From positions 18,559,513 to 18,623,512 of the forward strand of contig CM057147.1 in assembly GCA_029964075.1 (NCBI GenBank): a stretch of 64,000 nucleotides of DNA, written 5' to 3'. The stretch is from Patiria pectinifera. Lineage: Eukaryota; Echinodermata; Asteroidea; Valvatida; Asterinidae. Below are positions 26,681 to 61,814 of this stretch, piece after piece. Each line of letters begins with the position of its first letter. Within the stretch, counting starts at the first letter, position 1. The notes under the pieces were generated by a model that saw only the letters and a list, made by a program, of their open reading frames with translations, was not told where the DNA came from and made no database searches. Both the position numbers and the translations under genes were made by a program.

Positions 26681-28442
26681 ATGGAGGGTTTTTTCCATTT
26701 ACCACTTCCAATCAATCGTCAAAGTGGAGTCAACAAGGACACCCTTAGGAGAAAAATTCTCGAACTCGAAGGTGACTTAAAAGCGCGTTCTGGTCGAGAA
26801 GAAGAGTTTGCCATCCTCAATATGAAAGGACTTCTGCAACTGCGTCTCGAGGAGTACGAAGAGGCTGACGACACTTTCAAATCAGTCCTAATAAAGGATG
26901 AACATAACCTGAATGCCATGGCTAACATGGAACACACGCTTAAAGAACTTGACAGGTCTAGAGATGCCGAAGAATTCAGCCAGAGACTTGAGGCAGAGAA
27001 GACGAACAAGCTAGCAAAGGCAAGGTGTCGGGCTGAGCAGGCTTACGCGTATGCTTGTGATCTCCACACTGACCGAGGTACACCTGCCCAAGACAGGTTG
27101 ATCAAGTCCAACGCAATCTTCCAGGAAGCAATGGATATTGCTGGCAATCTGATGGCACCGTCTGAACGCAACGTGTGGACGTTCTGCATGGCTAAAAATG
27201 CCCACAAAATCTTCAGCACATTCAGTTGTATGTATCAACCACAAGAAGCCACGGATCACATGCAAAAGGCGGTGACATTATTTCATGAGTTAACGCAGAC
27301 TGAGCCAGGAGATTCAGAATACTGTTGGGAGAGTTGGCGTAACTTGGCAGACATACTCCGCAAGGTTCAGAAGAGAAACCATTTGAATTCAAATGACGTA
27401 CCGAAACAAGTCGATAGGAGACTCATAGAGTATCCAGAGGAGTGCATGCGAAAGGCTATGCGAAACTCCCCAAACAACCCAAGGCTCCGTGCTAGGTACG
27501 GGAATTTCGTGTATTCGCTCAAGAAAGAACGCAAAAAAGAAGCACTCAGTCTCTTGGACCAATCTATTAAACTTCATGAGAGCAGCAGCAACTATTACGC
27601 TTTCCACACAAGAGGTGAAATCCTCGTGAAGAGCCTGATGCATCAGATGAGAAAGGCGGAGGAAGACAGTACGTTTCGCCTTGACATGTCCAAGCTAAAG
27701 AAGGCAAAGGGCGATCTTGACAAAGCGATAGAGTTCCGGAACGCTGAATTTGACTTGGTGAAGATGGCCGAGTTGCACCTTCTCATGGCTCAAAATAGTT
27801 ACAACCCATATGGAAGCATAAACAGACCACGACAGTACGTGGAAAAAGCATTCACATATCTGAAACGAGCTACTAACGATGATCAGAATGAAGCACAGAG
27901 AGAAGTTAGACAAGGTCGTGGACGATGCTACTTTGAAATCGGCGAATATCGGAAATGTGTAGAATGCTATAAAGAGGCTTTGGCCATCGAATCAGATAGT
28001 CCTTTTACGGGTTATTTCTATGAGATGTTTTGCAGTTACCTGTGCTTGGTGCGAGAGGAATCCGAACACACAACCGACAACAATGCAGCTCTGTTTAGAG
28101 AGATGGAGAAATCTCTCCGACAGGCAGTCAGTAAGCATGGAGAAGTGAACCTCATTAATTACTGCTACAGCTCCTGGCAAGAAGAGTACGAGAGAGAAAT
28201 GATGTCGTTTGCCGAATACTGCAGAACCATCCCAGACAATGGAAGCCTTTTGAAGGTGCTGACATCGAAGAAACCGCGGTCGCCACTAAGTTCATCACCT
28301 GTTCGCAAAGGCGGGAAGCTCAAGAAAATTTGGTTCGGCCCCTTTAATGCAAGACCTGCTCAGATACCAATCAGGGATGGAAGTACAAGCATTGCCCGGG
28401 CTCAAGAGGAAGTCAAACCTGCTCCTCCTTCGGGAGGTGCAG
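26681..28442 (+). CDS. gene A exon 1: TPR module and linker
   Basis: One intronless exon of 587 codons plus one base. It starts MEGFFHLPLPINR and ends in GGTGCAG|GTAGGT, the same donor sequence as in gene B. The translation could read on past the donor into the intron (to 28,549), but that tail matches nothing in the other members. Confidence 0.88.
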
Positions 28443-30345
28443 GTAGGTTTCCATTACAACTTTTTTTACAAGATTTTTGTCAAGTTAAATGTTCGCGTTT
28501 TTCGTTGCATATGCATGAGAAGGACAGAAAAGATAAGTTTTTCAGTTAAAATAAATAATAGTAAATAACAAATCGAAGAAGATGAAAATTCGTCAGGAGA
28601 GAAAAAACTCAAACTTGTTGAAGAGCACGGGTAGTATACAAAAAGACAGAAAACGAAAAGAAATGGAACCCTTTCCGATTCAGCTATGATCAAATTATAA
28701 TTGACTCCCAAAAGACTCCTTGCATGTGACGTCAGATCAGAGGGCAGGTCTTTGCTCCTCGTTAATACGCATGTATAGAAGCATTGTACTTGCATCGTCA
28801 ACGAATCTGAATCACAAAACCTTCGCTCTGAGGGCCCACCTTGCAAGGGGTCTATTTTAATCGACTTCCCTGTCGGTCACCAGGACAACCAAGGGTAGAT
28901 TGTTCAGCCGTCGTGAGACGACAGGGCTCCGAAGAGTTGGCTACAAGCTCTGTAGCAGCTGCTGTTGCTGCTGCTACCGCAGACGCCGACGCCGGCAGGC
29001 CTGTTTTCAACATCAACATCAATGCTACTAATAGTCCTGTCAACTTTGGCACTACCCACGACAGCGTTTGCAACTACGGTACAGGTACGTTTACTTAAAG
29101 GAAGATGATTGTAATATATCCAGTTGCAGATATTGTATTAAGAATAACAAATGGTTCTGCTCTTCACCAAAGAACTTTAATAATAAGCATTGTTATGCAC
29201 TCTTGCTGTCCAGGGGCTGTGAGAAAATAATACAAGCTTGCTATAAAGTGAGATTTGAACCTCGTCTTACTGGTGCAGTTCAGTCCGAATCTATCGAGAC
29301 AGAGGTCCATGGTTCCATTCCTACCCAAGGAAGCCTTTTTTTCCCTCGCAAGCTTGCAAACAGGGATGAGTATTAAGTGCTCGTGATACAACGTAGCCTA
29401 TTACGGACAAAAACCAATTATCTTTGACGCAAAACAAATCAACAACAAAAGAAAAGATGGTCTTTGAAAGATGATTATGGTCCATGCTTAATCTTCGAGA
29501 TATGAAAATCAAAGAAATGTATTGAAAGGAAATTAAACCTTTTTTTTTTATTCCCACAAATATAGCATCAATCACAGAAGGAAGAGGGGAAGACGTGTCC
29601 CCTGAAGCAATCCAAATGCTAACTGAGTTGGAGAAATGTCTTGGGAAGGAACATGTGGCAGGGGTGCTGTCAAAGGGTCTGGAGATGGTGAAAAAGCAAG
29701 GTATATAGCTACATCACGACATCATCTTTTGTTAGGTGGTCTCCCCAGCTCTCCTTTAAGTTATCGCGAGGGGTACTTGTGCACGGTGCCCATGGCCTAC
29801 AAGTATGCATAATTCCCCGACAAAACATGGATACAGCGTTGAAAATGAAGTTTCGTGTATAAAATTGAAAAGGTTGAGTCATTTACTAGACTAGACTAGA
29901 GTAAGATTTTACACCAAATTTAGTGTGTCTCGTTGAAAAAGTAATAATCGTCAGGGCTTTGGAGAACGTTGGAAGATAGAAAGCCAAATGTGTCTTGCAG
30001 AACGCTTGTCTGTACGCTAAGCTTGGGAACAACAAAAAAATCTTATCTAAACCTCTGCTCGATGAATTTCAGTTTACCAATATTCATGTTTTCTCTCCTT
30101 CACGACTCAGAGCCTTGAATATGATTTTTTGTTTCTTTCCGCTATTACAAGCAGGCCTTGATGACCCTTCTCAGATGCCAAGACTAACTGAAGCAAACCA
30201 AAGTGCGACCGGTTCATCATCGGAAGCCATGGCTCCGTCAGCTACCGATGCAACCCCTTTGCTTATGGACGTTGCCGCTGCATCGTGTGGAATCGATAAC
30301 ATACAAATTACTGAGACTTTCCCTGAAAACTCGGAGCAAAACTAA
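26681..30345 (+). CDS. gene A: TTC22-like TPR protein with RHIM/amyloid-like C-terminal exon; four exons
   Basis: Joined exons 26681-28442, 28884-29084, 29566-29700 and 30155-30345 give 762 residues plus stop, all junctions in phase 1. Residues 1 to about 550 are helical TPR-type repeats matching vertebrate TTC22 in motifs (FFHLPLP, DEHNLNAMAN, RCRAEQAYAYACD, RLRARYGNFVYSL, NYYAFHTRG). A basic/Pro-rich linker follows, then an Ala-rich stretch (about 611-620), the motif PVNFGTTHDSVCNYG (about 639-653), a helix LTELEKCLGK and a Ser/Thr-rich tail. The frame is open upstream to 26,600, but the ATG at 26,681 aligns with the paralogs' starts. TTTTCGTTTTTAG just before it is a plausible acceptor for a 5' UTR intron. 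TPR scaffolding is family knowledge; a signalling role is inferred. The TPR region is the most diverged from B, C and D on this strand. Confidence 0.85.
28884..29084 (+). CDS. gene A exon 2: Ala-rich stretch and amyloid-like motif
   Basis: Acceptor GTCGGTCACCAG and donor ACAG|GTACGT; 201 bp, phase 1. It encodes QPRVDCSAVVRRQG, SSVAAAVAAATA and NATNSPVNFGTTHDSVCNYG. The exon and its flanking introns are closely repeated in gene B, with the reading frame kept. Confidence 0.8.
29240..29375 (+). repeat. degenerate tRNA-derived SINE in gene A intron 2
   Basis: The B-box-like GGTTCCATTCC is followed by a T-run and CCCTCGCAAGCTTGCAAACA, which matches the tail of the fuller copy at 53,890-54,010 (minus strand). 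Gene B carries the same insertion at 39,030-39,170. Confidence 0.55.
29566..29700 (+). CDS. gene A exon 3: short helical segment
   Basis: Acceptor TTCCCACAAATATAG and donor CAAG|GTATAT; 135 bp, phase 1. It encodes ITEGRGEDVSPEAIQMLTEL and continues with EKCLGKEHVAGVLSKGLEMV, which looks like an amphipathic helix pair. Gene B has an exon of identical length. Confidence 0.8.
30155..30345 (+). CDS. gene A exon 4: C-terminal tail
   Basis: Acceptor TTTCCGCTATTACAAGCAG. It encodes LDDPSQMPRLTEANQSATGS and ends in ITETFPENSEQN and TAA. The tail is rich in Ser, Thr, Ala and Asp with no recognised domain. Its end is identical in gene B. Confidence 0.8.
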
Positions 30346-32981: not shown

Positions 32982-33863
32982 CCATAAACACATTTCATAA
33001 GATATTTGCATATGAATACGATTTACTCACAGCTGGGATTTCCCCCGATGAGAAATTCTGAACCTGAACTTCCTCGTACTCCGCGGCCATGAACCGAAAG
33101 CACGCAGTATGGAATAATTTTTTTTCACCAGAATAGGATGTCGTGATTGGATGCCAACGTGTCAGTGTTAGTTACGTCTAGTCACGAGGTCACCAACGGC
33201 GGTTGCACATTCGCGCGCACGTCAGGTCCGTTTGCTTTACCCACAATCCTTTACGTTTTTCACACGATTCCTCACAGAACATCATCGGCCTGTACCGGAT
33301 GTTTTGAAGGGCTCGAGCAAAATGATACACTTTTCCCAGTCGTCCACACACTTTACAAAATATTCCCCAGGTGTAGACTACCTAATTTAATTTTCTGATG
33401 ATACTTTTAATAACAGTTAAAACTATTTGAAAATTTAAGATTTTTTTTACTGCTCATTTTCTCTCTTCCCTTTTAATGTGTGGAATTTAAAAGGACACTG
33501 AAAATAGTTAACCTTTAACACCCGTGGTGTTTGCAAACATGCGCAATCGGGAAAATCCAACTTAGGCATACACGACAGTATACATTTTGCAATGGCGTAC
33601 TATGATGGTACCCCACCCAATGCTTTTGCCAAAGTCGTTGATTATAGTTTATGGCATCATTTTCTTTAAATTGTGGGCGGGGTTATGTGGAGAAGGTGGG
33701 GCGGGGTCCCGAGTTATGTCAGTCCCTCGCCCTAATTCAACAGCATCTACCAACATTTAGTGTACTTTTACTAGTGGATGTCGTCTCAACTATCCAGTGT
33801 ACACGATAACGACGAAAAAAGATATCACACTTGTTCCATTGCAAATATTTGAAAAGCTTCCAG
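32982..33863 (+). promoter_or_regulatory. conserved upstream block of gene B with probable non-coding first exon
   Basis: This block recurs before genes C (46,174-49,020, interrupted by an insertion) and D (56,002-57,378), and begins again at 63,786. Shared elements in order: octamer ATTTGCAT (33,004), CCATGAACCGAA, GTGATTGGATGCC with an inverted CCAAT, an ACGTC/GGTCACC string, ACCCACAATCC (33,239), and a 5' splice donor CCAG|GTACGT at 33,863/33,864. Small indels break any reading frame before the donor, so a 5' UTR exon is inferred. A partner acceptor lies just before the gene B start. Confidence 0.5.
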
Positions 33864-34049
33864 GTACGTATATTTGCTTCATATTATGTGCCCACATACA
33901 CACAGTCTGGTTCCGTAGTTGTGTATTTGTGGGGACAGAACTGCTGTGGGGATAACAGAAACAGAAAGCCCCCTCAGTCCTAATTTGCCTAACAATAAAA
34001 AACCTTCCCCATAAGGCGGTGTAGGCCACGCATGTAAACACCTTCAATC

Positions 34050-35210: not shown

Positions 35211-35214
35211 TACA

Positions 35215-36454: not shown

Positions 36455-38333
36455 ATGGCAAAGGATATTTCACCGGGGCTTTTTCATTTAAATCTGCCTT
36501 TCAACAAACCAGACTTGAAGAAAGACGTTTTCAAAATGAAGTTGGCAGACTTGGAGGCGCGAACAGGCCAACATGAGGAACTTGCCATCCTCAATCTGAT
36601 TGGTGTGTTCAATTGCCGGCTCGAACGCTACAAGGATGCCGAAGACAAATTTAGCGACGTCCTCTCTAAGGATGAACACAACCTCAACGCTCTAGCAAAC
36701 ATGCAGTACCTTTTGGAGAAACTTAACAGGACAGTAGAAGGCAAAAGGTTCAAAAGCAAACTAAACATGTTCCTGAGTAGGTCTACGGAGGAGGCAGTCA
36801 GTGTTAGGATGAGAGCAAGGTGCTTAGCAGAGCAGGCATATGCTTATGCTTGCGATATGCACACAGATCGTGACAGCGTCGGTAAAGAGTGGTTCATAGA
36901 ATCCAATGATATCTTCCAAAGGGCACTTGAGCTTGGTGGTGATCTGGTAGATACGGCGGAGAAGGACATCTGGAAATTCTGCATTGCCAAGAACGCGCAT
37001 AAGATCTTCGATAGGTTTACTTTCGGGGAAGACTATGTGGACGCCACAGAGTACATGGATAAAGCTATCGGGATCTTCTATGAAATTGCACAGAAGGATC
37101 CCGGTGATTCCAAGTACCAAGGCGAAAGTTGGCGCCATTTGGGAGACATTCTCCGCAAGGTTCAGAAAAGGAAGCACTGCAACTCTGACCATTTGCCGGA
37201 CGATTTGAAAAAGTATGTTGCAGACCCGGAGCTTTGCATGAAGAAAGCACTCGAGTGTGACCCGGACAATCCGAGGATCCTAGCTCGCTACGGAAACCTT
37301 GTGTATCACCTCAGGCGAAACACCGAAGAAGCACTGAGGTTGCTGGATAAGTCGATCGGACTAGACAACAGCGAGAGTAACTTCTACGCTTTCAGTACGA
37401 GAGGAACAGTCCGGCTGAAGTGCTACAAATTGAAGATGCGAATGGCTGAAAAAGATAGTAAAGGCCACTCCAAACCAGGCCGAAGCGTGCTAGAACTCGC
37501 CAAAATTGATATGGAGAGGGCAATTGACATACGCCATGCTTCATGGGACTTGCTAAATATCGCGGAAGTGTATCACCTTTTGGCCCAGTGTGACCCAGAT
37601 GAGCCGAAGGAGTCAAAAAGACGATATCTGGAGAAGGAATTCGAGTATTTGAAACGGGCTGCAGATTGTGAAAACGGTAACAGGTTAATTTCAGTGAAAC
37701 GCTTGCTGGGGCGCTGCTTATTCGACTTGGGCCACTATCGCGAGTCCATTCAATCGTATAATGAAACTTTGAATTTGCAACCAGCCACTTCGCAGTATAC
37801 AGGGTACTTCTATGAACAATTCCGCAGTTATCTGTGCCTACTGCAGAGCGGCCCGAAGGATGATTCTCCCTTAGAGGAAATGGCTCAGTCTTTGAGGCAG
37901 GCAGTTGCAAAGTACGGGACTAGCGCCCTCATCAAGCACGGCTTTGGCACATGGAAAGCAGAGTACAAACACGAGCTTCAGGTCTTCGCCGACTACTGTA
38001 AAACAATCCCGAACCACGACAGTTTCTTGTATGTGTTGACTTCTAATGAGCCACCGTACCCTCTCACCCCACTTCCTCGCCCAGGTGGGCTACTGAAGGA
38101 GTCTTGGGAAAGCCCAGAGCAAGAGGATCACGGTGTTGGAAAGCTTGACACGGAAAATTCCAAGACCTTGGATGGTCTGTCTCCAGATTCATCATCTCAA
38201 CAGGTTCCGCGCCTGATCGATGCCGGCAAAGATGTAGCCTGCTCACCAGATAGTGGACTTGTGGCACCAAACCAAACCCCAGATAAGACTGAAGATGAGG
38301 CTTCCACATCACTAGTGGAGGGAATAGGCACAG
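36455..38333 (+). CDS. gene B exon 1: TPR module and linker
   Basis: A single exon of 626 codons plus one base, from MAKDISPGLFHL to SLVEGIGTG at ACAG|GTAGGT. The paralogs C and D read straight through the corresponding point into their TIR region. Confidence 0.9.
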
Positions 38334-40129
38334 GTAGGTTTCCATTACAATTTTAATAGATTATTCCGACACTTAACATGGGATCAGTTTGGCAGGTTTT
38401 AAGGAAACGTTTTATTTTCGGATTCGTTGCAAGCGCCTGAGGTGAAAAAAGTATACTTTCTCAGTAAATAAAAATCACAGAAGTTGAAAATTGTCAGGGG
38501 CAACTTGAATTCGATAAATCGTCTAGAGCAAAAAAGACAGAAAACGAAAAGAAGTGGAACTCTTCTCGATTCAGTTATTGATAATGATCATGATGAAATT
38601 GCAATAGACTCCTTGCATTGTAACGTCAGATCTGACAGGTCTTGGTTCCTCTGTGAGACACATTGTACTTTCATTGTCAACGAATCTGAATGACAAAACC
38701 TTCCCTCAGTAAGGACACACCGCTTGCAAGGGGTCATTTTTAACCAATTCTCCTCTCGGTCATCATGCAGGACTACCAAGGGTAGACTGCTCAGCTGTTG
38801 TAAGACGACAGGGCGCCGAAGAGCTGACTACAAGCTCTGTAGCAGCTGCTGTTGCTGCTGCTACCGCCGACTCCGACGCCGGCACAATTAACACCACTTT
38901 TCATATCAGCATCAATGCTACGAATAGCCCTGTCAACTTCGGCACAACCCACGGCAGCGTTTGTAACTACGGTACAGGTGAGTTTGATAAGACGAGATGA
39001 TTGTCTGTAATTTATCACGTTGTATGCATTTAGCACACTGGTGTGGGATTCGAACCTACGCCCTACGTCTGACTGGTGCAGAAGTATCCAGACAGAGGTC
39101 CTTGGTTCCAGCCCCACCCAATGATTAAGTCTTTTTCCTCGCAAGCTCGCAAACAGTGTTCAGTTCTTGCTATACAACGTAGCCTATTATGGGAAAAAAT
39201 AACGATCTCCCCCCCCCCCAAAAAAAACACAAAAATTTGAAAGATGATTATGATCCTTGATTGATCTTCGAGAAATGACAATCAAAGAAACGTATTGAAA
39301 GTAAATGAACCCATGTTGTTTCCCCTCAAATATAGCCTCAATCACAGATGGAAGAGGGGCAGACGTCTCCCCTGAAGCAATCCAAGTGCTAACTGAGTTG
39401 GAGAAATGTCTTGGGAAGAAAAATGTGGCAGAGGTGCTGTCAAAGGGTCTGGAGATGGTGAAAAAGCAAGGTATTTAGCTTCAACCCTACATCATCATTT
39501 GTTAGGTGGTCTCCCAGCTCTCCTTAAGTTACCGCGGGGGTACTTGTGCACGGAGCCCATAGGGCTTACAAGTTTGCATGATTCCCTTTCAAAAACAAGG
39601 AGCGTCAGTGAAAAATGAAGTTTTTCGTATCTGAAATTGAAAAGGTTGAGTCACAAATAGACCAGAGTAAGATTTCACACCAAATTTAAGTGTGTCTCGT
39701 TAAAAAAAAACAATCGTCAGGGCTTTGGACTACGTTCGAATGACGAAAGTCAAACTTGTTCAGTTGCAACGAGAACGCTTGTCTGCACGCTGAGCGTGGG
39801 AATAACAAAAAGATTTACCCAAACATTCTGCTCGAAAAAAAATTGCAGTTGACCAATATTCATGTTTTCATTTGTTCTCCTTTACGACTCAGAGCCTTGA
39901 ATATGATTTTTGGTTGTTCCCTCTATTATAATAAGGAGGCGTTGATGACCCTGCTCTGATGCCGAGACTCTCTGAAGCAAGCCAAAGTGCGACCGGTTCA
40001 TCACCTGAAGCCGTGGCCACGTCTGCTACCGATGCAACCCCTTTGCGTATGGGCGTTGCCGCTGCATCGAGTGCAATTGATAACATACAAATCACTGAGA
40101 CTTTCCCTGAAAACTCAGAGCAAAACTAA
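36455..40129 (+). CDS. gene B: TTC22-like TPR protein with RHIM/amyloid-like C-terminal exon; four exons
   Basis: Joined exons 36455-38333, 38771-38977, 39336-39470 and 39939-40129 give 803 residues plus stop, all junctions phase 1. The TPR part (1 to about 560) is very close to genes C and D (SPGLFHL, PFNKPDLKKD, DEHNLNALANMQYLLEKL, RMRARCLAEQAYAYACDMHT, DPDNPRILARYGN, NFYAFSTRG), with a four-residue deletion near residue 32 relative to them. The linker shares PDSG, APNQTPD and SLVEGI with C and D. From the end of exon 1 onward the gene is close to A instead: Ala-rich stretch, PVNFGTTHGSVCNYG (about 680-694), helix and tail. It looks like a recombinant gene. The intron before the start probably ends at TTCTTCCCAACAAG, where C and D have CAACAG. 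Confidence 0.85.
38771..38977 (+). CDS. gene B exon 2: Ala-rich stretch and amyloid-like motif
   Basis: Acceptor GGTCATCATGCAG and donor ACAG|GTGAGT; 207 bp, two codons longer than in gene A. It encodes LPRVDCSAVVRRQGAEEL, SSVAAAVAAATA and INATNSPVNFGTTHGSVCNY. The other two frames contain a stop or lose the similarity to A, which supports this splice phase. Confidence 0.8.
39030..39170 (+). repeat. degenerate SINE in gene B intron 2
   Basis: This is the duplicate of the insertion in gene A intron 2. It has a B-box-like GGTTCCAGCCC and the tail CCTCGCAAGCTCGCAAACAG. It was inserted before the A/B 3' segment was duplicated. Confidence 0.5.
39336..39470 (+). CDS. gene B exon 3: short helical segment
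   Basis: Acceptor TTTCCCCTCAAATATAG and donor CAAG|GTATTT; 135 bp, as in gene A. It encodes SPEAIQVLTELEKCLGKKN and VAEVLSKGLEMVKKQ. Confidence 0.8.
39939..40129 (+). CDS. gene B exon 4: C-terminal tail
   Basis: The acceptor here is ATAATAAGGAG, weaker than the ACAAGCAG in gene A but at the same place. The exon is 191 bp in both genes. It encodes VDDPALMPRLSEASQSATGS and ends in ITETFPENSEQN and TAA. Confidence 0.75.
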
Positions 40130-43049: not shown

Positions 43050-44873
43050 TCATTCAGTGGAACTTGCCGATGCTCCATCAACCACGGCCTCAGTAACAGC
43101 ACCCTTGGGACTGTGCACGCTGTGTTCCAATGATGCTCTCCATGGTTCCTCCAGAGAACCACCGGGGCTGACCGGCAACGAGAACGGTAGTTTCTCGGCC
43201 ATGGATGTCAGCAAGGGGACCAGCTCTGCATGCTCCGGACGTCCTCTGCAGTATTCCGCGATTGTACGGATCTCCTTCCCGTACTCAGATCCCAACTTGC
43301 TTATGGTGTGTTTTTCCAGATTGCCCCGGCCATATTTAATCTGAGCTTTTTTCAAGTCCCCCACAACCTCTTCCATTTGAGGTCCGTCTCCACTGGCCGG
43401 AGGTTGACGTAACAATTGGAGGTACCCTTTCAGTAGCTCGGCAAAGTTACCGGAGAATATGGTTCTTTCGGGTTCGCAATGGATCGCCTTCTTGAAGTAT
43501 TCGATCGCGGCGAGGTAATCTCCCATGTCAAAGAGACAATTTCCCTGCAACAGATGTACCATGGTTCGTTTCTCCCCGTCTTCACAATCTGCTGCTTTTC
43601 TCAAGTAGAGCAGTGCTTTTTCTAAGTACCGTCGAATCACCGTATTCTCCTCGTTCTTGGTCTTGGAATGTTTGGCTAGGAGATGATAAATCTCACCCAA
43701 GTAGGAATAATCCCAAGGTGTGTCCCTCATACCAACAGCGGTCTCAAAGTCATTCCTGGCTTCTTGTAGATGTTTTATACTTGGTGGGTACTCGTAATAT
43801 GGACTGCCACTCTCAAACTGTTTCAAGCAAAATCTGTAGTTATGCAAAGTTATTCTTCCTCTTGTGGAAAATGCATAGAAGTTATTTTCACTGCTGTCTA
43901 AACCAATAGACCGCTGGAGCAATTCCATTGCTCTTTTGGTGCAACCTTTCTTCTTAAGGGAGTGAACAAAATTGGCATAGCGGGCCCACATCTTGGGATT
44001 ATCAGGGGCAATTTCTGCTGCCTTCTTCATGCACTCTTCCGGATCATCTCGGTATACATTCAATTCTGGAAGGAATTTATAATTCTTAAATTCCTTTTTC
44101 TTTATGGTACCCCGTATGAGGTCGGCCAAGTTGCGCCAGCTCTCCCACTTGAATTCGGCGTCACCAGGAGTACTTTGGGTAACTTCGAAGAACAAATTCT
44201 CTGCGATCTTCAAGTTGGACGCAGCTTCAGTGAACTCTCCTTTGTAGGTCAAGAAATTGACAATTTTGTGAGCATTTTTGGCCTTGCAGAACTTCCAGTT
44301 ATCTCTCTCCAATGGATCCACCAGATCTCCGCCGAGTTGGAACGCATCATCGTACAGGTGATTTGCTTGGAGGTACCTGGTCTCCCCAGGCCTATCAACG
44401 TGGATGTCACATGCATAGGCATACGCCTGCTCAGCCAGGCAACGCGCCTTTCGACAACGACGCTGTTTGATCTCGTCTGGCGACATAGCATCACCAACTT
44501 GCAACAAGCTGTCGAGTGTGGCTTGGTGGAGCTCTGCATCTGCCCTTCGGACGAGCTTCTCCAAAACTTCCTTCTTATTTGCTAGGGCATTCAGGTTGTT
44601 GCAATCTTTGGACAGCACGGCTTCAAAACGACAGAGTGCACTCTCGTAATCTTTGATGATGAAAGACAGCGCCCCCATGACGTTCAGAATGGCCAATTCT
44701 TCCAGACGACCGAGCCTTACCTTTAGGTCGTGCTCTAGCTCAGTAAGTTTCGTCTTCAGTAGATTAATGTCGATATTGGGTGCATTGAATGGCAATGGCA
44801 GAAAGAAATGTCCTGGCACGACATCTCTTTCACCTTCTTCTATCCGTTCATCACCAACTGCTGCGTCAGCCAT
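43050..44873 (-). CDS. gene E: diverged TTC22-like TPR protein, no C-terminal signalling domain
   Basis: One uninterrupted frame of 607 codons on the minus strand. It shares the family landmarks: PGHFFLPLPFNAP, EELAILNVMGAL, NLNALANKKEVLEKL, KARCLAEQAYAYACDIHV, NAHKIV, ESWRNLADLIR, DNPKMWARYANFVHSL and NNFYAFSTRGRI. It ends in a short Pro/Ser linker (FSLPVSPGGSLEEPW) and TGA, about where C and D continue to their TIR domain. The PGHF start resembles vertebrate TTC22. No minus-strand exon for a TIR or amyloid-like end was found in the next 2 kb. Just upstream, minus-strand TTTTTTTACCAAAG is a plausible acceptor for a 5' UTR intron. It lies between two array units and faces the other way. Confidence 0.88.
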   Translation of the reverse strand: MADAAVGDERIEEGERDVVPGHFFLPLPFNAPNIDINLLKTKLTELEHDLKVRLGRLEELAILNVMGALSFIIKDYESALCRFEAVLSKDCNNLNALANKKEVLEKLVRRADAELHQATLDSLLQVGDAMSPDEIKQRRCRKARCLAEQAYAYACDIHVDRPGETRYLQANHLYDDAFQLGGDLVDPLERDNWKFCKAKNAHKIVNFLTYKGEFTEAASNLKIAENLFFEVTQSTPGDAEFKWESWRNLADLIRGTIKKKEFKNYKFLPELNVYRDDPEECMKKAAEIAPDNPKMWARYANFVHSLKKKGCTKRAMELLQRSIGLDSSENNFYAFSTRGRITLHNYRFCLKQFESGSPYYEYPPSIKHLQEARNDFETAVGMRDTPWDYSYLGEIYHLLAKHSKTKNEENTVIRRYLEKALLYLRKAADCEDGEKRTMVHLLQGNCLFDMGDYLAAIEYFKKAIHCEPERTIFSGNFAELLKGYLQLLRQPPASGDGPQMEEVVGDLKKAQIKYGRGNLEKHTISKLGSEYGKEIRTIAEYCRGRPEHAELVPLLTSMAEKLPFSLPVSPGGSLEEPWRASLEHSVHSPKGAVTEAVVDGASASSTE

Positions 44874-46170: not shown

Positions 46171-46173
46171 TCG

Positions 46174-46502
46174 CCATAAACACATTTCATAAAAAGCTAT
46201 TTGCATATGAATACGATTACTCACCGCTGGGATTTCCCACAGATGAGAAATTCTGAACCTGAACTTCCTCGTACTCGTACTCCGCGGCCATGAACCGAAA
46301 TCACGCAGTATGGGATGATTTTTCACCAGCTCAGGACGTGATTGGATGCCATCCTGCTACGTCTTGTCACAAGGTCACCAACGCTGGTTGCACGGTTGCA
46401 CATTCGCGCGCACGTCACTGCAGGTCAGTATGCTTTACCCACAATCCTTTGCGCATTCTCACATTATTCCGTACAGAAAATGTTCAGCATGTACCGGATG
46501 TT
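46174..46502 (+). promoter_or_regulatory. conserved upstream block of gene C, first part
   Basis: It carries the octamer ATTTGCAT at 46,199, CCATGAACCGAAAT, GTGATTGGATGCC, ACGTCTTGTCACAAGGTCACC and ACCCACAATCC at 46,437, in the same order as before genes B and D. The foldback element splits the block at 46,503; it continues at 48,462. Confidence 0.5.
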
Positions 46503-46892: not shown

Positions 46893-46964
46893 TTTGTATC
46901 GGTGAGCGTCGGGCACAACAATTGCGATCCCTCCGGGTCCTATGGAACGCCAAAGAGGCATCGG

Positions 46965-48155: not shown

Positions 48156-48411
48156 TCGCCGCGGCGAGTTATTATCTCGCCGCGGCGAGATAGTAACTCG
48201 CCGCGGCGAGATAGTAATTCATTTCGCGATATCGTAATTCGCCGCGGCGAGATAGTAATTCATTTCGCGATATCGTGATTCGCCGCGGCGATATCGTAAT
48301 TCGCCGTAACTCGCCGCGGCGAGATAGTAACTCGCCGCGGCGAGATAGTAACTCGCCGCGGCGAGATAGTAACTCGCCGCGGCGAGATAGTAACTCGCCG
48401 CGGCGAGATAG
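48156..48411. repeat. 21-bp palindromic units (right arm)
   Basis: The same CTCGCCGCGGCGAG palindrome with ATAGTAA spacers: three units at the inner end, five regular units at the outer end, and a disordered middle with a TTCATTTCGCGATATCGTAA variant. It is the inverted counterpart of the left array but shorter. Confidence 0.85.
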
Positions 48412-48461
48412 GAAAAAAAATTCTTAATTTCTTTTGGCCCTTCTACGCTTCCGTATTGAAG

Positions 48462-51147: not shown

Positions 51148-53565
51148 ATGGCAAAGGATATTTCACCGGGGCTTTTCCAGTTAGATCTGCCTTTCAACAA
51201 ACCAGACTTGAAGAAAGACGCTTTCAAGATGAAGCTGCTAGACATTGAGGCGGACTTAGAGGCGCGAAAAGGCCGACCTGAGGAACTTGCCATCCTCAAT
51301 CTGATTGGTGTGTTCAATTGCCGGCTCGAACGCTACAAGGATGCCGAAGAAAAATTTCGCGATGTCCTCTCTAAGGATGAACACAACCTCAACGCTCTAG
51401 CAAACATGCAGTACCTTTTGGAGAAACTTTACAGAACAGTAGACGGTAGACGATACAAAAGCAAACTAGACATGTACCTGAGTAAGTCTACAGAGGAGGC
51501 AGTCAGTGTTAGGATGAGAGCAAGGTGCTTAGCAGAGCAGGCATATGCTTATGCTTGCGATATGCACACAGATCGTGACAGTGTCGGTAGAGAGCGGTTC
51601 ATAGAATCCAATGATATCTTCCAAAGGACACTGGAGCTTGGTGGTGATCTGGTAGAGACGGCGGAGAAGGACTTTTGGAAATTCTGCATTGCCAAGAACG
51701 CGCATAAGATTTTCGACAGGTTAAGCTTCGGCGAACATCGCGTTCAAGCCACAGACTACATGGACACAGCTATCGAGATCTTCTATGAAATAACACAGAA
51801 GGAACCCGGTGATTCCAAATACCAAGGCGAAAGTTGGCGCCACTTGGGAGACATTCTCCGCAAGGTTCAGTTGAGGAAGCACTGCAGTTCTGCCCATTTG
51901 CCGGACGAACTGCAGAAGTACGTTGCAGACCCGGAGCTATGCATGAAGAAAGCACTCGAGTGTGACCCGGATAATCCCAGGATCCTAGCCCGCTACGCTA
52001 ACTTTGTGTATCACCTCAGGCGATACACAAAAGAGGCACTGAGATTGCTGGATAGGTCGATCACACTAGACAACAGCGACTTTAACTTCTACGCTTTCAG
52101 TACAAGAGGAACAGTTCGGTTGAAGTTCTACAAATGGAAGATGCGAATGGCTGAGTTAGATAATAAACGGCACTCCAAACCAGATCGAAGCGTGCTAGAA
52201 CTCGCAAAAATTGATATGGAGAGGGCAATTGACATACGCCATGCGTCGTGGGACTTGCTGAATATCGCGGACGTGTATCACCTTTTGGCCCGGTGTGACC
52301 CAGATGAGCCCAACGAGTCAAAAAGGCAATACCTGGAGAAGGAATTCGAGTACTTGAAAAGGGCTGCAGATTGTGAAGCCGGTAACCGGTTAATTTCAGT
52401 GAAACGCTTGCTGGGGTGCTGCCTGTTTGACTTGGGCCACTATCGCGAGTCCATTCAGTTGTATGATGAAACTTTGAATTTGGAGTCAGCCACTTCGCAA
52501 TATACAGGTTATTTCTATGAACAATTCCGCAGTTATTTGTGCCTACTGCAGAGCGATCCAAAGGATGATTCCCCCTTGGAGGAGATGGCCCAGTCCTTGA
52601 GGCAGGCCGTTGCAAAGTATGGGACGAGCGCCCTCATCAAGAACGTCTTTGGCACATTGAGAGTAGAGTACAAACACGAGGTTCAGGTCTTCAGCGACTA
52701 CTGTAAAACAATCCCGAGCCACGATAGTCTCTTGTTTGTGCTGACTTCTAACGAACCACCGTCCCCTCTTACCCCACCTCCTCGCCCTGGTGGGTTACTC
52801 AAGGAGTCTTGGGAAAGCCCAGAGAAAGAGAAAGAGGATCACGGTGTTGGAGAGCCCCAAAAGGAAAATCCCAAGACCTTGGACAGTCTGTCTCCGGTTG
52901 CACTATCTGAACATACTCCTAGCCTGATTGATGCCGGCAAAGATGTGGCCCCCTCACCAGATAGTGGGCTCGAAGCACCCAACCAAAACCCAGATGAACA
53001 AGCAAGTCAAGCTACCGAATCACTAGTGGCATCCAACCAAACCCCAGACAAGCCAGCAGATGGGGCTGCCGCATCACTAGTGGAGGGAATAAGAAGCATA
53101 TCCATTACAGATTCACCACCAGAAAAAGGCTCTGATCGTACGCTGAAAGATTTTGACTTCTTTGTTGTACACACGGAAAGTGACACAGAGTGGGTGCACG
53201 AAGAATTGCTTCCTAAGTTGGGGATAAGGAAGTTAAAGGGGTCCACAACCCAAGAAAATTCTCTGGCAGGTTCCTTCGTCCTTAGCAGTGAGTTGCATTT
53301 GATGGAAAGCAGTGCTTGTATTTTGTTCGTCCTTACAAGTGGTTTCGAGACGGAGTGCAAGTTTCTCATGCATCACGCTCTGAAACTCAAGAAAGGAGGT
53401 CACGTCATTTTCCCGCTTCGAAGGGGCAAATCTGCAGTTCCACGGGAGCTTCAAGATATCCTCTTTTGCTTCGATGCTACTCACGAGAGAGTAAATTGGG
53501 ATAAATTAGCTCAAGACATTAAGCGTCAGATCCAAGCAGCTAAGGACTTGCCCGTGCATGATTAG
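51148..53565 (+). CDS. gene C: TTC22-like TPR-TIR protein
   Basis: A single coding exon of 805 residues. Residues 1 to about 555 are TPR-type repeats almost identical to genes B and D. Residues about 555-665 are a Pro/Ser/Asp/Gln-rich linker with a duplicated APNQ-PD...SLV phrase. Residues about 666-800 are a TIR domain: FDFFVVHTESDTEWVHEELL (box 1 strand and helix A), the BB-loop region around SLAGSFVL, strand CILFVLTSGF, ECKFLMHHALKL, VIFPLRRGKSAVPRELQD and a final WDKLAQDIKRQI helix. TIR domains bind other TIRs or hydrolyse NAD. Here the position usually held by the catalytic Glu appears to be Leu (KFLMHHAL), so scaffolding is more likely. The ATG context ACCATGG is strong. A TPR-TIR adaptor or sensor in innate signalling is inference. 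Confidence 0.93.
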   Translation: MAKDISPGLFQLDLPFNKPDLKKDAFKMKLLDIEADLEARKGRPEELAILNLIGVFNCRLERYKDAEEKFRDVLSKDEHNLNALANMQYLLEKLYRTVDGRRYKSKLDMYLSKSTEEAVSVRMRARCLAEQAYAYACDMHTDRDSVGRERFIESNDIFQRTLELGGDLVETAEKDFWKFCIAKNAHKIFDRLSFGEHRVQATDYMDTAIEIFYEITQKEPGDSKYQGESWRHLGDILRKVQLRKHCSSAHLPDELQKYVADPELCMKKALECDPDNPRILARYANFVYHLRRYTKEALRLLDRSITLDNSDFNFYAFSTRGTVRLKFYKWKMRMAELDNKRHSKPDRSVLELAKIDMERAIDIRHASWDLLNIADVYHLLARCDPDEPNESKRQYLEKEFEYLKRAADCEAGNRLISVKRLLGCCLFDLGHYRESIQLYDETLNLESATSQYTGYFYEQFRSYLCLLQSDPKDDSPLEEMAQSLRQAVAKYGTSALIKNVFGTLRVEYKHEVQVFSDYCKTIPSHDSLLFVLTSNEPPSPLTPPPRPGGLLKESWESPEKEKEDHGVGEPQKENPKTLDSLSPVALSEHTPSLIDAGKDVAPSPDSGLEAPNQNPDEQASQATESLVASNQTPDKPADGAAASLVEGIRSISITDSPPEKGSDRTLKDFDFFVVHTESDTEWVHEELLPKLGIRKLKGSTTQENSLAGSFVLSSELHLMESSACILFVLTSGFETECKFLMHHALKLKKGGHVIFPLRRGKSAVPRELQDILFCFDATHERVNWDKLAQDIKRQIQAAKDLPVHD

Positions 53566-55600
53566 GCCACCAGAGGTACAAAAAAAACATACACTCCAGT
53601 ACTGTTATAGAGTGCTCAGCAGGTGCCGGCGTCGTTCCACACAAACGAAGAAACATCACCCACTGATGGTGATGTCCGTTGCCACTGATGTGTCCAGCGC
53701 CATTTTTAGTTCCTGAACTTAGTCCATCCCTGCTAAGTACTGCAGGCTTACCACTGAGCTCCCCACTAAAATACCACCGGCTAATTCAACCACCGAGTTC
53801 ACATGCGTACAACAATATGCACATTTTTATATAGTGCGTTTTTCCCTTGGCCAGCGTATTTTATAAAGACTGTATACTCAGTGCTTGCGAGAAAAAAATA
53901 TCACAAGCTTACTCAGGTGGGACTCGAACCCACGACCTCCTGCTCACTAGTGCAGATACGTCCTTCCACTCGACCACCGAGCTTTCCCGGGTCGGCTGGC
54001 CGGTTCGAGTCTGATGATGATGTATAGATGTGGGTACCGCAACCAAACTTAAAAAAAAAAAACGTCGTCGAAATTGCAAAACCCAATGTTAAATGTACAT
54101 CTCCCTGACGCAAATTCCATCTTTTTTTCATAGACTAAGTATTTATCTTCAAACCATAACGCTAATTCATTGCGATCAATCAGGGCGTTGTCATTCTTAC
54201 TACCTCTTTCGCGAGGTAAACGTAAAATAAATATTTACCCGTCTCGATAGACGGAGCTGCTAGACATAGAAGTTTGCTAAGCACACTTGCTCACTAGTAA
54301 AACATGTTACCAGCCAAAGCTTTATGCAGTTTATGAAACTTTTGTTGTAATTGGTACTCAACATGCGGTTCCCATTCGCGAACCTGACTCACGAAGTCGA
54401 CGAACCGCACGCAAAGTGCTTTGGACTGCAGATCATAGACTGCATACATAGACCTCAGTGATAAATACGCGCATTTCCAAAAAATATTAAAAATGCTCAC
54501 AACTCTCCAAGGTGTTTGAGAAACACATTTATAATCTTTCATTTTCTGTCCATTTTTTTGGGATGAACCAATGATTTGGGGAGAAAATTCCATCCAAATG
54601 TGATCACCTCTAAAAGTACTCCTGAAGCCCATCGCCATTTTGAAAAAGGACTCATAAACGCTCCATTGCAAAAATAGAGCCATTCATTATTTTAGGGCCC
54701 TATTTCATCCGAATTTCACAGAAATACGAGCTCGCAGTCCTCTGCACGGCTTCCACCTTCTTTTTTTTTGCATTTTATTTCTACTACAACCTTCAAGTTT
54801 TCGGACGTAAAAATGCTCTAATACCGGATAATTTGTGGGCATGCAAATTGTGATTTGGCTGTCATTTTCGTAGACAATTTAGGGCCTGTTTACTGGTCTG
54901 CAGCCTTTGCGGCCTGTTTATACCGTGTGTGTTAATTAAGGGCGCCCGCTACGGTGAATCCCTTCACAGTCCAATGCACCACTAAGGACGTCTTCGAACC
55001 AAGAGTAAATTTAGCCGTGCATTGGTAAAAATGCATGCAGTGTACGAGTTAGAACATTTTGGTCGAATTTCTCAAAATGGTGGGTTTTCCTCTGAGTTGC
55101 CACAAGGGGATATAAGATTAAGCAGTATAGGGTAAAAAAAACTTGGAAAAAAAAACAAACACCGAGTGTGACGAACAGCACTGGCGGAGCAAATGTAAAT
55201 AAATTTGAAGCAATTGTTTGTCACCATGATGTACATAATAATGTCAGGTTTCCAAAGTAACCAGAAGCTGATGACTTGGCGGAAACTATGTAGTTTGTTT
55301 TAAAGGCGGAAACTATGTAGTTTGTTTTAAAGGCATATAGGATCAACTGCATCTATCCCAAAATTACCCGACCGAATTCAATTATCAAAAAGCTTGGATT
55401 TAAGATCTTACTGGTACTAAACACCCCGTCAAATTATTCTGTCTGCTGGCTTCCTCTGTATTTATTTCCAAACAACAGGTATCCATGAATAAAAGACAGT
55501 TTGTAGAAAATTTTATTTCTTGTACATTGTGCATTGTACAATTCTTTAAACCGTTTTTGTTTTCAATAAAAAGTTTATACTGTTGTTGTCAAAAATATAA
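53566..55600 (+). other. downstream region of gene C
   Basis: No gene is supported. From about 54,132 it matches the region after gene D (61,962 onward: AGACTAAGTATTTATCTTCA), but 53,603-54,130 is unlike D. An AATAAA at 55,565 is shared with D (63,558) and with the gene A side (32,735), so it may be the polyadenylation signal. Confidence 0.5.
53890..54010 (-). repeat. tRNA-derived SINE, fullest copy
   Basis: On the minus strand it has GCTCGGTGGTCGAGTGG (A box) and GGGTTCGAGTCCCACC (B box and T-arm), and a tail TTTTTTTCTCGCAAGC. The T-arm pairs well, but the acceptor stem has mismatches and wobbles and the anticodon region is not tRNA-like, so it is not called a tRNA gene. Confidence 0.65.
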
Positions 55601-56001: not shown

Positions 56002-57378
56002 CCATCAACACATTTCATAAGCTATTTGCATATGAATACGATTACTCACCGCTGGGATTTCCCCCGATGAGAAGTTCTGAACGTGAACTTGGTCGCACTC
56101 CAACCTCGTCCCCAGGGTGTCGAGCAGTACGCGCCCACCACTACCCGCTCTCTCACAATTGCATGTGCAAGATTGATGCAAATGAGGAATAGTCTGGTGC
56201 CTGCATGTGCGTTACATTTGCATTTGTTTTTGTATGCGGTGTCTGGGATAAAAACAGAATCAATTCGTCGCAGCGCGAGCATGGCATGAGTTTCGAAAAT
56301 AAGATTTTATTTTAATAATGTTACGATCTTAACGAGACAATATGCAGTATCACATTTCATATTAATATGAACAAGTTGGAAAGGAGACGATATTTTTGAG
56401 AAGGCGTGGACGAATGATCACGAAAACACGTACTGCATGTTGTGAATAACAACACCAAGTACACGATATAAATCCATTTCTAGCCAATTGCGGTATCGAA
56501 TCAGGATACAGGAAAGAAGCGTCCTATCCAGGGCTTACTATTGGAAACGATGTTGGAAATAAAGTAAGCACTGGGGACGAGGTTGTGTCGCACTCGTACT
56601 TGTACTTGCGTGGCCATGAACCGAAGGCACGCAGTACATAGGATGATATCGTTAGATCAGAATAGGATACCACGATTGGATGCCGACCTGTGACGTCAAG
56701 GTCACCAACGCTGGTTGTTCATGGGCGCGCACGCCAGGTCAGTGCGCTTCACCCACAATCCTTTGCGTATTCTGACATGATTTTGTACAGAAAATGATCG
56801 GCCTGTACCGGAGATTTTAAAGGGCACGAGCAAAATAATACACTTGTTTCCCAGTCACCCACACATTTTACGAATGTTCCCTTGTTGTGGACTACCTGAT
56901 TAAAAAACCTAAAGACTTTGAAAAAAGTAGTCATTAACCGTTAAAAATTTAATTTTTATTTTACTGCTCTTTTCCTTTCTTGCCCTTAAAAAAATGTGAC
57001 ATTAAAAGTGTACTGAAAAACAAGGACCGTTAACCTTTAACACCAATGGTGTTTGCAAACATGCGCAGTATAGGCAATCCCAATTGCATGTCGACATTTT
57101 GCAATCGTACGATAATGGTGCCCAACCTAATGCTCTTGTCGAAGTCGTTGATTAGTTTATGACTGAGGAAGGATTTCTTTAATTTGTGGGCGGCATTTGT
57201 GGAGTCGTTTGGGCGGTGGCTCTGTGCCAAAGTCAGCCCCTGTTGTCGTCCAGATTCAGAAGCTTACCGAATGTACGATTGTGTATTTTGTGGATGTGGT
57301 TTCAACTACGCAGTGTACACGATACTGACGAGAGAGGACATCGACTACTTCCCCAACTAATGTTTGGAAAACTGTCAG
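56002..57378 (+). promoter_or_regulatory. conserved upstream block of gene D, with a hAT-like insertion, to predicted 5' splice site
   Basis: Octamer ATTTGCAT (56,024), CCATGAACCGAAGG, TGACGTCAAGGTCACC (a full CRE-like palindrome next to an AGGTCA half-site), ACCCACAATCC (56,751) and donor GTCAG|GTACAT at 57,378/57,379. The element at 56,101-56,587 splits it. The acceptor partner is CCCAACAG at 59,339. Confidence 0.5.
56101..56587. mobile_element. hAT-like non-autonomous element, 8-bp target duplication
   Basis: Ends CAACCTCGTCCCCAG and CTGGGGACGAGGTTG are inverted repeats. The 8-bp sequence TCGCACTC lies on both sides (56,093-56,100 and 56,588-56,595), and the other three copies of this block lack the insert. 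An 8-bp duplication with CA...TG-like ends fits hAT elements. No transposase in the 487 bp. Confidence 0.8.
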
Positions 57379-59396: not shown

Positions 59397-61814
59397 ATGG
59401 CAACGAATATTTCACCGGGGCTTTTTCACTTAGATCTGCCTTTCAACAAACCGGAATTGACAAAAGACGCATTCAAGATGAAGCTGCTCGACATTGAGGC
59501 AGATTTGGAGGCGCGAAAAGGCCGACCTGAGGAACTTGCCATCCTCAATCTGATTGGTGTGTTCAATTGCCGGCTCGAACGCTACAAGGATGCCGAAGAA
59601 AAATTTCGCGATGTCCTCTCTAAGGATGAACATAACCTCAACGCTCTAGCAAACATGCAGTACGTGTTGGATAAACTTTACAGAACAGTAGATGGTAGAC
59701 GATACAAAAGCAAACTAGACATGTTCCTAAGTAAGTCTACGGAGGAGGCAGTCGGTGTTAGGATGAAAGCAAGGTGCTTAGCAGAGCAGGCATATGCTTA
59801 TGCTTGCGATATGCACACCGATCATGACAGCGTCGGTAGAGAGCGGTTCGTAGAATCCAATGATCTCTTCCAAAGGGCACTGGATCTTGGTGGGGATCTA
59901 GTAGAGATTGCGGAGAAGGACATATGGAAATTCTGCATCGCCAAGAACGCGCATAAGATCTTCGACAGGTTAAGCTACAGTGAACACCAAGCTCAAGCCG
60001 CAGATTACATGGACACAGCTATCGAGAACTTCTATGAAATAACACAGAAGGATCCGGGTGATGCCAAGTACCAAGGCGAAAGTTGGCGCCATTTGGCAGA
60101 CATTCTCCGCAAGGTTCAGGAAAGGAAGTACTGCAGCTCTGACCACTTGCCGGAATATCTAGAGAAGTACATTGAAGACCCAGAGCTATGCATGAAGAAA
60201 GCACTCGAGTGTGACCCGGACAATCCGAGGATCTTAGCTCGCTACGGAAACTTTCTGTATCATCACAAGCGATACAAAACCGAAGAAGCACTAAGGTTGC
60301 TAAATAAGTCGATCGCACTAGACAAAGGCGACTATAACTTCTATGCTTTCAGTACGAGAGGAACAGTTCGGCTGAAGTTCTACAATTGGAAGATGCGAAA
60401 AGCGACGGCGGACAGGGAACGTCACTCCAAACCAGAACGAAGCGTGCTAGAACTCGCCAAAATTGATATGGAGAGGGCAATTGACATACGCCATGCTTCA
60501 TGGGACTTGCAAAATATCGCGGAAGTGTGTCACTTGTTGGCCCAGTGTGACCCAGACGAGCCGAAGGAGTCAAAAAGGCAATACCTGGAGAAGGAATTCG
60601 AGTACTTGAAAAAGGCTGCAGATTGTGAGGACGGTAACCGGTTAATGTCAGTGAAACGCTTGCTGGGGCGCTGCTTATTCGACTTGGGCCACTATCGCGA
60701 GTCGATTAAGTCGTACGATGAAGCTTTGAATTTGCAGCCAGCCATTTCGCAGTATACAGGCTACTTCTATGAACAGTTTCGCAGTTATCTGTGCCTACTG
60801 CAGAGCGATCCGAAGGATGATTCCCCCTTGAAGGAAATGGCTCAGTCCTTGAGGCAGGCAGTTGCAAAGTACGGGACTAGCGCCCTCATCAAGCATGGCT
60901 TTGGTAAATTGAGAGCAGAGTACAAACACGAGCTTCAGGTTTTCGCCGACTTCTGTGAAACAATCCAGAACAGCGACAGTCTTTTGTATGTGTTGACTTC
61001 TAACGAGCCCCCGGGACCTTTTGCTCCACCTCGTCGCCCTGGTGGGTTACTGAAAGAGTCTTGGGAAAACCCAGAGAAAGAGGATCACGGTGTTGGAGAG
61101 CCTGACAAGGGAAATTCCAAGACCGTGGACATCGACAGTGTGTCTCCGGTTGCATCTGAACAGGCTCCTAGCCTGATTGATGCCAGCAAAGATGTGGCCC
61201 CCTCACCAGATAGTGGGCTCGAAGCACCCAACCAAAACCCAGATGAACAAGCAAGTCAAGCTACCGAATCACTAGTGGCATCCAACCAAACCCCAGACAA
61301 GCCAGCAGATGGGGCTGCCGTATCACTAGTGGAGGGAATAAGCAGCATGGCCATTACAGATTCACCACCAGAAAAGGACTCTGATCGGACGCTGAAAGAT
61401 TTTGACTTCTTTGTGGTGCACACGGCAAGTGACGCAGAGTGGGTGCACGAAGAATTGCTTCCTAAGTTGGGGATGAGAAAATTAAAGGGGTGCACAACCC
61501 AAGAATATGCCCTGGCAGGTTCCTTCGTCCTTACCAATGAGTTGCATTTGATGGAAAGCAGTGCGTGTATTTTGTTCGTCCTTACAAGTGGTTTCGAGAC
61601 GGAATGCGAGTTTCTCATGCATCATGCTCTGAAACTAAAGAAAGCCGGTCACGTCATTTTCCCGCTTCGAAGGGGCAAATCTGCAGTTCCACGGGAGCTT
61701 CAAGATATCCTCTTTTGCTTCGATGCTACTCGGGAGAGAGTAAATTGGGAAAAATTAGCTCAAGACATTAAGCGTCAGATCGATGCAGCTAAGGAATTGC
61801 CCGTGCATGATTAG
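59397..61814 (+). CDS. gene D: TTC22-like TPR-TIR protein
   Basis: A single coding exon of 805 residues, the same length and layout as gene C: TPR module (1 to about 555), acidic/Pro-rich linker with the same duplicated APNQ-PD phrase, and TIR domain (about 666-800: FDFFVVHTASDAEWVHEELL, CILFVLTSGF, ECEFLMHHALKL, VPRELQDILFCFDA, WEKLAQDIKRQI). Leu again sits where most NAD-cleaving TIRs have Glu. Differences from C cluster in the middle of the TPR region (residues about 200-345) and in the linker, while the TIR region is nearly identical. Start context ACCATGG. A recent tandem duplicate of C. Confidence 0.93.
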   Translation: MATNISPGLFHLDLPFNKPELTKDAFKMKLLDIEADLEARKGRPEELAILNLIGVFNCRLERYKDAEEKFRDVLSKDEHNLNALANMQYVLDKLYRTVDGRRYKSKLDMFLSKSTEEAVGVRMKARCLAEQAYAYACDMHTDHDSVGRERFVESNDLFQRALDLGGDLVEIAEKDIWKFCIAKNAHKIFDRLSYSEHQAQAADYMDTAIENFYEITQKDPGDAKYQGESWRHLADILRKVQERKYCSSDHLPEYLEKYIEDPELCMKKALECDPDNPRILARYGNFLYHHKRYKTEEALRLLNKSIALDKGDYNFYAFSTRGTVRLKFYNWKMRKATADRERHSKPERSVLELAKIDMERAIDIRHASWDLQNIAEVCHLLAQCDPDEPKESKRQYLEKEFEYLKKAADCEDGNRLMSVKRLLGRCLFDLGHYRESIKSYDEALNLQPAISQYTGYFYEQFRSYLCLLQSDPKDDSPLKEMAQSLRQAVAKYGTSALIKHGFGKLRAEYKHELQVFADFCETIQNSDSLLYVLTSNEPPGPFAPPRRPGGLLKESWENPEKEDHGVGEPDKGNSKTVDIDSVSPVASEQAPSLIDASKDVAPSPDSGLEAPNQNPDEQASQATESLVASNQTPDKPADGAAVSLVEGISSMAITDSPPEKDSDRTLKDFDFFVVHTASDAEWVHEELLPKLGMRKLKGCTTQEYALAGSFVLTNELHLMESSACILFVLTSGFETECEFLMHHALKLKKAGHVIFPLRRGKSAVPRELQDILFCFDATRERVNWEKLAQDIKRQIDAAKELPVHD

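Follow-up and report, generated by a model that had tools for sequence, protein, structure and literature searches.

An array of five genes in the sea star Patiria pectinifera carries one tetratricopeptide repeat (TPR) module with differing C-terminal ends, and one member of this array, gene B, is a chimera that joins the TPR exon of one gene type to the tail of another. The window that we analyzed is the whole 64,000-nucleotide stretch from contig CM057147.1 (assembly GCA_029964075.1, positions 18,559,513 to 18,623,512, forward strand), which has 41.6% GC and is without any N. It contains five intact TPR modules of one exon each, in genes referred to as A to E. The original prediction, made from the letters alone, described five genes with a common TPR module, of which C and D end in a TIR domain, A and B splice to further exons, and E stops after the TPR part. 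The array is genuine: the five frames are intact, and Pfam TPR families are matched in 5/5 modules. A scan of three proteins against NCBIfam returned weak bacterial TPR matches only. The TPR exons and TIR domains are located as follows.

26681..28442, plus strand: TPR exon of gene A; Pfam TPR match, possible splice acceptor about 10 bp 5' of the ATG, donor CAG|GTAGGT at the end
36455..38333, plus strand: TPR exon of gene B; 87-88% DNA identity to D and C
43050..44873 (including the stop), minus strand: gene E, TPR only, 607 amino acids, intact open frame
51148..53565, plus strand: gene C, TPR and TIR in a single exon, 805 amino acids; open frame with Pfam matches
53158..53481, plus strand: TIR of C, Pfam TIR_2, residues 671-778
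59397..61814, plus strand: gene D, TPR and TIR in a single exon, 805 amino acids; open frame with Pfam matches
61407..61736, plus strand: TIR of D, Pfam TIR_2

Gene B changes type at the end of its first exon. The B TPR exon (36435-38318) is 88% identical in DNA to C and 87% to D, and from 38463 to 42781 five aligned stretches of B, separated by gaps, show 77-84% identity to A across the introns, exons 2-4, and the 3' flank. A MAFFT alignment places the switch from C/D type to A type within about 20 bp.

38318..38340, plus strand: chimera junction of B; C/D-like before, A-like after

The TPRs of A and B are 46% identical, with a synonymous divergence (dS) that is not computable, and the tails of A and B have a dS of 0.227, near the 0.290 between the TPRs of B and C (NG86). 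These alignments indicate that B is a chimera with a TPR exon of the C/D type and a tail of the A type, and we infer that an A-type output was attached to a TIR-type TPR exon when members of the array recombined or underwent gene conversion. The idea of exchangeable outputs on one module gains support from this gene, in which the change of type falls at an exon border. Comparisons of output domains among animal immune proteins usually involve distant species; here the parental types and a recombinant lie in one array, so that close paralogues with a known breakpoint are available for the study of output switching. The chimera goes beyond the original prediction, as do the partial upstream unit at the right edge of the window, the IFIT-like fold, and the octamer-plus-kappaB block described below. 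Genes A, B, C, and D all have a short TCCATTACA/CCATTACA stretch at the same position beside the junction (28432-28470, 38321-38350, 53090-53115, and 61340-61365), which could have served as microhomology in the swap or could reflect common ancestry. Within the otherwise homologous 3' flank of B, about 770 bp (41388-42157) have no counterpart in A.

Homologues of the array occur in other sea stars. Our two full-length searches each scored about 8,000 candidates, those with the most words in common with the query. Thirteen homologues were identified at an E value of 1e-5, 12/13 of them from P. miniata, Acanthaster planci, Asterias rubens, and Asterias amurensis. Over its entire length, gene C shares 93% identity with P. 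miniata P0001, which places the window in a species near P. miniata, though one that differs from its reference. P0001 is named "tetratricopeptide repeat protein 22-like" at NCBI, and most of the homologous proteins are already in public databases under such automatic names. No description of the sea-star TPR-TIR architecture appeared among the matches listed from the open-licence literature. In 11 of the 13 homologues, the alignment with C and D extends through the TIR. Gene E stops after the TPR, as originally described, and so do the other two homologues, P0011 (P. miniata) and P0012 (Acanthaster), which fall with E in the tree; the shortness of E is thus old and kept. The homologue sets P0001/P0002/P0011, P0003/P0010/P0012/P0013, and P0005/P0006/P0008 apparently lie on one contig per set, so that these genes may be clustered as well; P. 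miniata P0009 is on a contig other than that of P0001/P0002/P0011. A maximum-likelihood tree joins B to C, D, P0001, and P0002 (100/99) and leaves A outside this group (94/94), a placement that is unsure because of the long branch of A. The unrooted tree is most simply read with the TIR as the common state and with the A/B tails, or the absence of an output, as replacements of it. By eye, the TPR-TIR linkers of Asterias P0006, P0007, and P0008 contain repeat units of about 45 residues whose number varies between the paralogues.

The TIR ends that had been proposed for C and D were confirmed by profile comparison. In both genes a linker leads from the TPR to the TIR, with no intron between. Pfam TIR_2 matches at approximately residues 670-779 in C (E 8.3e-4, 20.3 bits) and D (E 3.2e-4, 21.6 bits); scanned alone, the TIR of C scores 24.5 bits, and P0013 scores 26.0 bits. 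Four of six TIR homologues gave a sub-threshold TIR match. A profile built from eight TIRs (C, D, and six homologues) matches MyD88 (E 9.9e-10) and TLR2 (E 2.6e-9), and a single-sequence search puts TIRAP first (E 7.6e-5). The TIR call holds because of these profile matches; we weighed similarity to known TIRs above the Pfam score cut-off, which is no structural feature. By this measure, the TIR of C and D is of the MyD88/TLR class. In SARM1, E642 is the catalytic glutamate, and the corresponding column holds A or I in 8/8 TIRs in 3/3 MAFFT alignments. A SARM1-like NADase was rejected since no glutamate occupies this column, in a register taken from MAFFT only; an assembly role is therefore likelier than NAD cleavage, and the TIR of C and D is probably non-enzymatic. 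Searching the whole window with the C TIR by tblastn (E up to 1) gave matches in C and D only, so at that threshold A, B, and E have no concealed TIR nearby.

Genes B, C, and D are preceded by homologous segments of about 1 kb each. The best-conserved 40 alignment columns of these segments run from an octamer (ATTTGCAT) into a kappaB-type site (GGGATTTCCC) and are 0.93 identical in B, C, and D, versus a mean of 0.55. ATTTGCAT is read here as an octamer and GGGATTTCCC as a kappaB site.

33004..33044, plus strand: upstream unit of B, octamer and kappaB-type site
33857..33869, plus strand: splice donor predicted for a noncoding 5' exon in B; similar sites lie upstream of C and D
46199..46238, plus strand: upstream unit of C, octamer and kappaB-type site, between E (minus) and C (plus)
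56024..56063, plus strand: upstream unit of D, octamer and kappaB-type site
63787..64000, plus strand: partial fourth upstream unit, with GGAATTTCCC at 63839-63848

The exact site GGGATTTCCC occurs three times in the window versus 0.14 expected, and 0/100 shuffles reach three. Only this exact repeated site was used, not the general kappaB consensus, which has 22 matches versus a mean of 8 expected (1/100 shuffles reaches 22), with palindromic sites counted twice. Searched as one pattern, the octamer block matches the B copy only, the spacer fitting B alone, and the other three copies are seen by alignment. The C copy sits between the divergently oriented E and C. The upstream segments of B, C, and D end in a common splice-donor-like CAG|GTAC, which fits a noncoding first exon, and the partial fourth unit at the edge of the window suggests another array member beyond it. 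Interferon-stimulated response element (ISRE) and TATA patterns were set aside as too common or misplaced; the ISRE-type GAAANNGAAA has 13 matches in the window, a count without a chance control, and the two that precede a TPR exon of A-D by no more than 4 kb (33958 and 50690) are both outside the conserved octamer-kappaB block. Two insertions were also observed in these units. The C unit contains a transposon-like insert (46509-48455) whose inverted terminal arrays repeat a 21-bp unit (CTATCTCGCCGCGGCGAGTTA); its termini are TACGGAAGCGTAGAAGGGCC, and TTGAAG is probably a 6-bp target duplication. The D unit carries an insertion of about 475 bp (approximately 56110-56590) soon after the kappaB-type site; the units of B and C and the one at the window edge lack it.

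The tails of A and B are encoded in three predicted exons per gene.

28884..29084, plus strand: gene A, predicted exon 2, with an Asn-rich stretch resembling a RIP homotypic interaction motif (RHIM) at 29018-29083
29566..29700, plus strand: gene A, predicted exon 3
30155..30345, plus strand: gene A, predicted exon 4 with stop
38771..38977, plus strand: gene B, predicted exon 2, with the RHIM-like stretch at 38911-38976
39336..39470, plus strand: gene B, predicted exon 3
39939..40129, plus strand: gene B, predicted exon 4 with stop; weak acceptor GAG|, with AAG| 3 bases earlier also in frame

Exon 1 ends in CAG|GTAGGT in both genes, and exons 2-4 have GT/AG borders with phases that match between the genes. 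Aligned at the nucleotide level, the tail exons of A and B (527/533 nt) differ by 2 indels (7 and 1 nt, net 6) and have an equal frame at both ends, versus 91 indels in the three introns. Exons 2-4 differ by 25 synonymous and 30 nonsynonymous changes (proportions pS 0.194 versus pN 0.076; Fisher P = 2.8e-4), a pattern showing that as a whole they are under purifying selection and evolve as coding sequence; for exon 3 alone (nonsynonymous divergence dN 0.062, dS 0.033), purifying selection is not seen. The 22-codon Asn-rich stretch of exon 2 (INATNSPVNFGTTH) has 5 synonymous changes and 1 nonsynonymous change (P = 0.0017). Neither tail has a copy elsewhere in the window by tblastn with E values up to 1, which gave matches between A and B only and none near C, D, or E. 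A search with residues 585-762 of spliced A against 7,764 candidates of about 420-1330 amino acids found no tail homologue at E 0.01, and the full-length A query, within its roughly 8,000 scored candidates, returned 6 matches, all among the 13 known homologues and none with the A tail. An A/B-like motif is present in 0/13 homologues; the E-type P0011 and P0012 have a relaxed tetrad elsewhere, in the TPR part.

The RHIM tetrad is defined as V/I-Q-V/I-G (PMC12119088); that of A and B is VNFG. Pfam RHIM gave no match to either tail up to E 10, and a PDB search with tail A gave none up to the same value. A relaxed RHIM-like tetrad is by itself close to chance, since 849/20,000 shuffles of tail A contain one. 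RHIM membership was therefore rejected on tetrad and profile. The original prediction that A and B splice to exons with an amyloid-like motif thus stands as to a conserved Asn-rich stretch in coding-constrained predicted exons, and is not supported as to RHIM membership; the amyloid reading is weak, since the motif is conserved but departs from the RHIM tetrad and has no Pfam RHIM match. These same negative results, including the lack of a tail homologue among the scored candidates, favor an alternative in which the A/B tail has no amyloid or signalling role, A and B are TIR-less decoys or regulators like E, and the Asn-rich stretch is just one part of a disordered tail. We regard this as a serious contender that falls somewhat short of even likelihood, because the tail as a whole is constrained and so must do something, and because the 22-codon motif is constrained within it. 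Moreover, the natural RIPK3 tetrad VQFG is described as still working, with less NF-kappaB activation than the usual tetrad (PMC12119088); VNFG is one residue away, and its function is possible on that account.

The TPR module is predicted to form an IFIT-type superhelix of about 530 residues. Interferon-induced IFIT proteins fill the first 11 rows of solved-structure matches to the TPR model and occupy ranks 2-5 in another fold search. IFITs are matched over nearly the whole TPR part, versus about 290 residues for LGN. An hhalign comparison to IFIT5 gave a score of 35.5 and a probability of 22%, where the best of 20 shuffles scored 24.5; without realignment, the score was 22.4 and the probability 18%. 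Among the RNA 5'-end pocket residues of IFIT5, R253/Y254 lie opposite invariant residues in 6/7 alignment settings, K426 opposite a lysine in 7/7, and R186 opposite K187 in 2/7. A viral structure library returned mostly general TPR and repeat proteins, with no IFIT-like pattern.

Most likely, the array proteins are intracellular, NF-kappaB-inducible sensors or adaptors in which the superhelix would bind a ligand and the exchangeable tails would set the response. The immune role offered originally is supported indirectly by three features: a TIR of the MyD88/TLR class, the IFIT-like fold, and the octamer-plus-kappaB block that precedes B, C, D, and the next unit; its RHIM part is not supported as a claim of membership. 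A more specific model, which we hold to be evenly poised, combines an IFIT-like TPR superhelix and a variable output in NF-kappaB-induced proteins that are clustered by ligand and assemble through the TIR with the Toll/MyD88 pathway. NF-kappaB would switch on the genes via the common upstream block, and the groove of the superhelix would bind a ligand, either RNA or protein, that brings the proteins into clusters. The probably non-enzymatic TIR would then nucleate an assembly that takes in further TIR proteins from the Toll/MyD88 pathway. The ligands of A/B and E would be identical to those of the TIR members or overlap with them; A/B could feed another assembly through their tail, or A/B/E could damp the TIR members by competing for ligand.

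Several observations weigh against this model. For the fold, IFIT2 and IFIT3 structure entries rank lower (22 and 38), and the TPR sequence profile scores best against designed consensus TPRs, with no IFIT in the best 60 of 76 matches. For several IFIT5 residues, no matching counterpart is seen: K150, its strongest RNA contact, has a conserved basic partner in 0/7 settings, K415 is mostly opposite Glu in 7/7, and E33, T37, and Q41 are unpaired in 4 settings and paired inconsistently in 3. For the TIR, no protein scanned reached the Pfam TIR_2 cut-off of 28 bits, and P0003 and P0005 had no Pfam TIR match at E values up to 10 although they align with the C/D TIR. A TIR-only structure model from 13 sequences was not confident (pLDDT 38.9) and was unused for fold search, and hhalign of the TIR against SARM1 aligned 13 unrelated columns only, so that the E642 register rests on MAFFT. 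For regulation, no copy of the octamer-kappaB block was found upstream of A, and the kappaB copies are duplicates of one ancestral copy that count as one kept element.

The chief rival to the sensor model holds that the TPR-TIR proteins act constitutively in Toll/MyD88 signalling, as adaptors or as brakes, that their groove binds a protein partner, such as a receptor tail or chaperone, and that the IFIT likeness reflects only how long TPR superhelices fold. The extent of the IFIT matches over LGN and the invariant residues opposite R253/Y254 argue against it, and we consider it unlikely, if worth keeping in view. More doubtful still is a bolder form of the sensor model, in which the proteins are cytosolic nucleic-acid sensors with an IFIT-like superhelix fused to a Toll-type TIR, foreign RNA nucleates TIR assembly, and the array recombines output exons (TIR or a RHIM-like amyloid tail) onto sensor exons. 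If it were true, IFIT-like RNA recognition would be older than the interferon system or parallel to it. Knockdown and challenge tests are feasible in sea stars, which serve as laboratory models. Finally, that exons 2-4 of A and B are part of a different transcript or represent a decayed remnant, with A and B reading through to a nearby stop, is very improbable: their splicing is predicted from sequence with no transcript seen and the acceptor of B exon 4 is weak, but the borders and phase common to both genes, the scarcity of indels relative to the introns, the purifying selection, and read-through ends of unequal length in A and B all speak against it.

Elsewhere in the window, exons of a matrix metalloproteinase gene on the plus strand (10766-20223) end in a hydrophobic stretch and include the following domains.

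10766-11080, plus strand: PG_binding_1 with PRCGLPD, the cysteine switch
12460-12732, plus strand: Peptidase_M10 (E 6e-17)
19897-20223, plus strand: Hemopexin

A tRNA-like element on the minus strand (53909-53983) scores 29.3 bits versus the Rfam cut-off of 29, has no readable anticodon in ARAGORN, and looks like a tRNA-derived short interspersed element.

Compared with known systems, the array has partial likenesses in several directions. Vertebrate TTC22 is similar by name only, through the automatic NCBI names of several sea-star homologues, and TTC22 is not known to have a TIR. The TIRs of MyD88, TIRAP, and the TLRs are similar in profile, best to MyD88 and TLR2 and with TIRAP first by single sequence, and the sea-star TIR is like them in having no glutamate at the SARM1 catalytic column. 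However, these TIRs are joined to a death domain, a lipid-binding region, and a leucine-rich repeat ectodomain, respectively, and the sea-star TIR to a TPR module. RHIM proteins (RIPK1, RIPK3, TRIF, and ZBP1), fungal PP motifs, and bacterial BASS motifs are like the A/B stretch in being short and Asn-rich with a V-x-F-G core, and the RHIM proteins differ from A/B in the tetrad, which is VNFG here, and in the absence of a profile match. IFITs share with the array the TPR superhelix (predicted here), a single large exon that encodes almost the entire module, and clustered genes; they differ in that there is no clear detection at the sequence level, that the K150 pocket residue is not conserved in the array module, and that they are not known to carry a TIR. 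IFITs are reported from jawed vertebrates only, with no identifiable sea urchin gene, and most mammalian IFIT genes have the start codon in a separate first exon (PMC3688568), whereas the sea-star start codon sits in the TPR exon. TPRs can be present in fungal NLRs that have a PP motif, and certain BASS motifs are found alongside bacterial TIR domains (PMC7889193). Bacterial TPR-TIR proteins, Group 6 of a TIR survey, also have TIR and TPR in one large protein, but their TIR is often N-terminal (PMC7075850) and that of the sea stars is C-terminal and of the animal class. If the IFIT-like module does bind RNA, an RNA-recognition fold reported from jawed vertebrates only would be linked with the more ancient Toll/MyD88 pathway, in animals for which no interferon is known.

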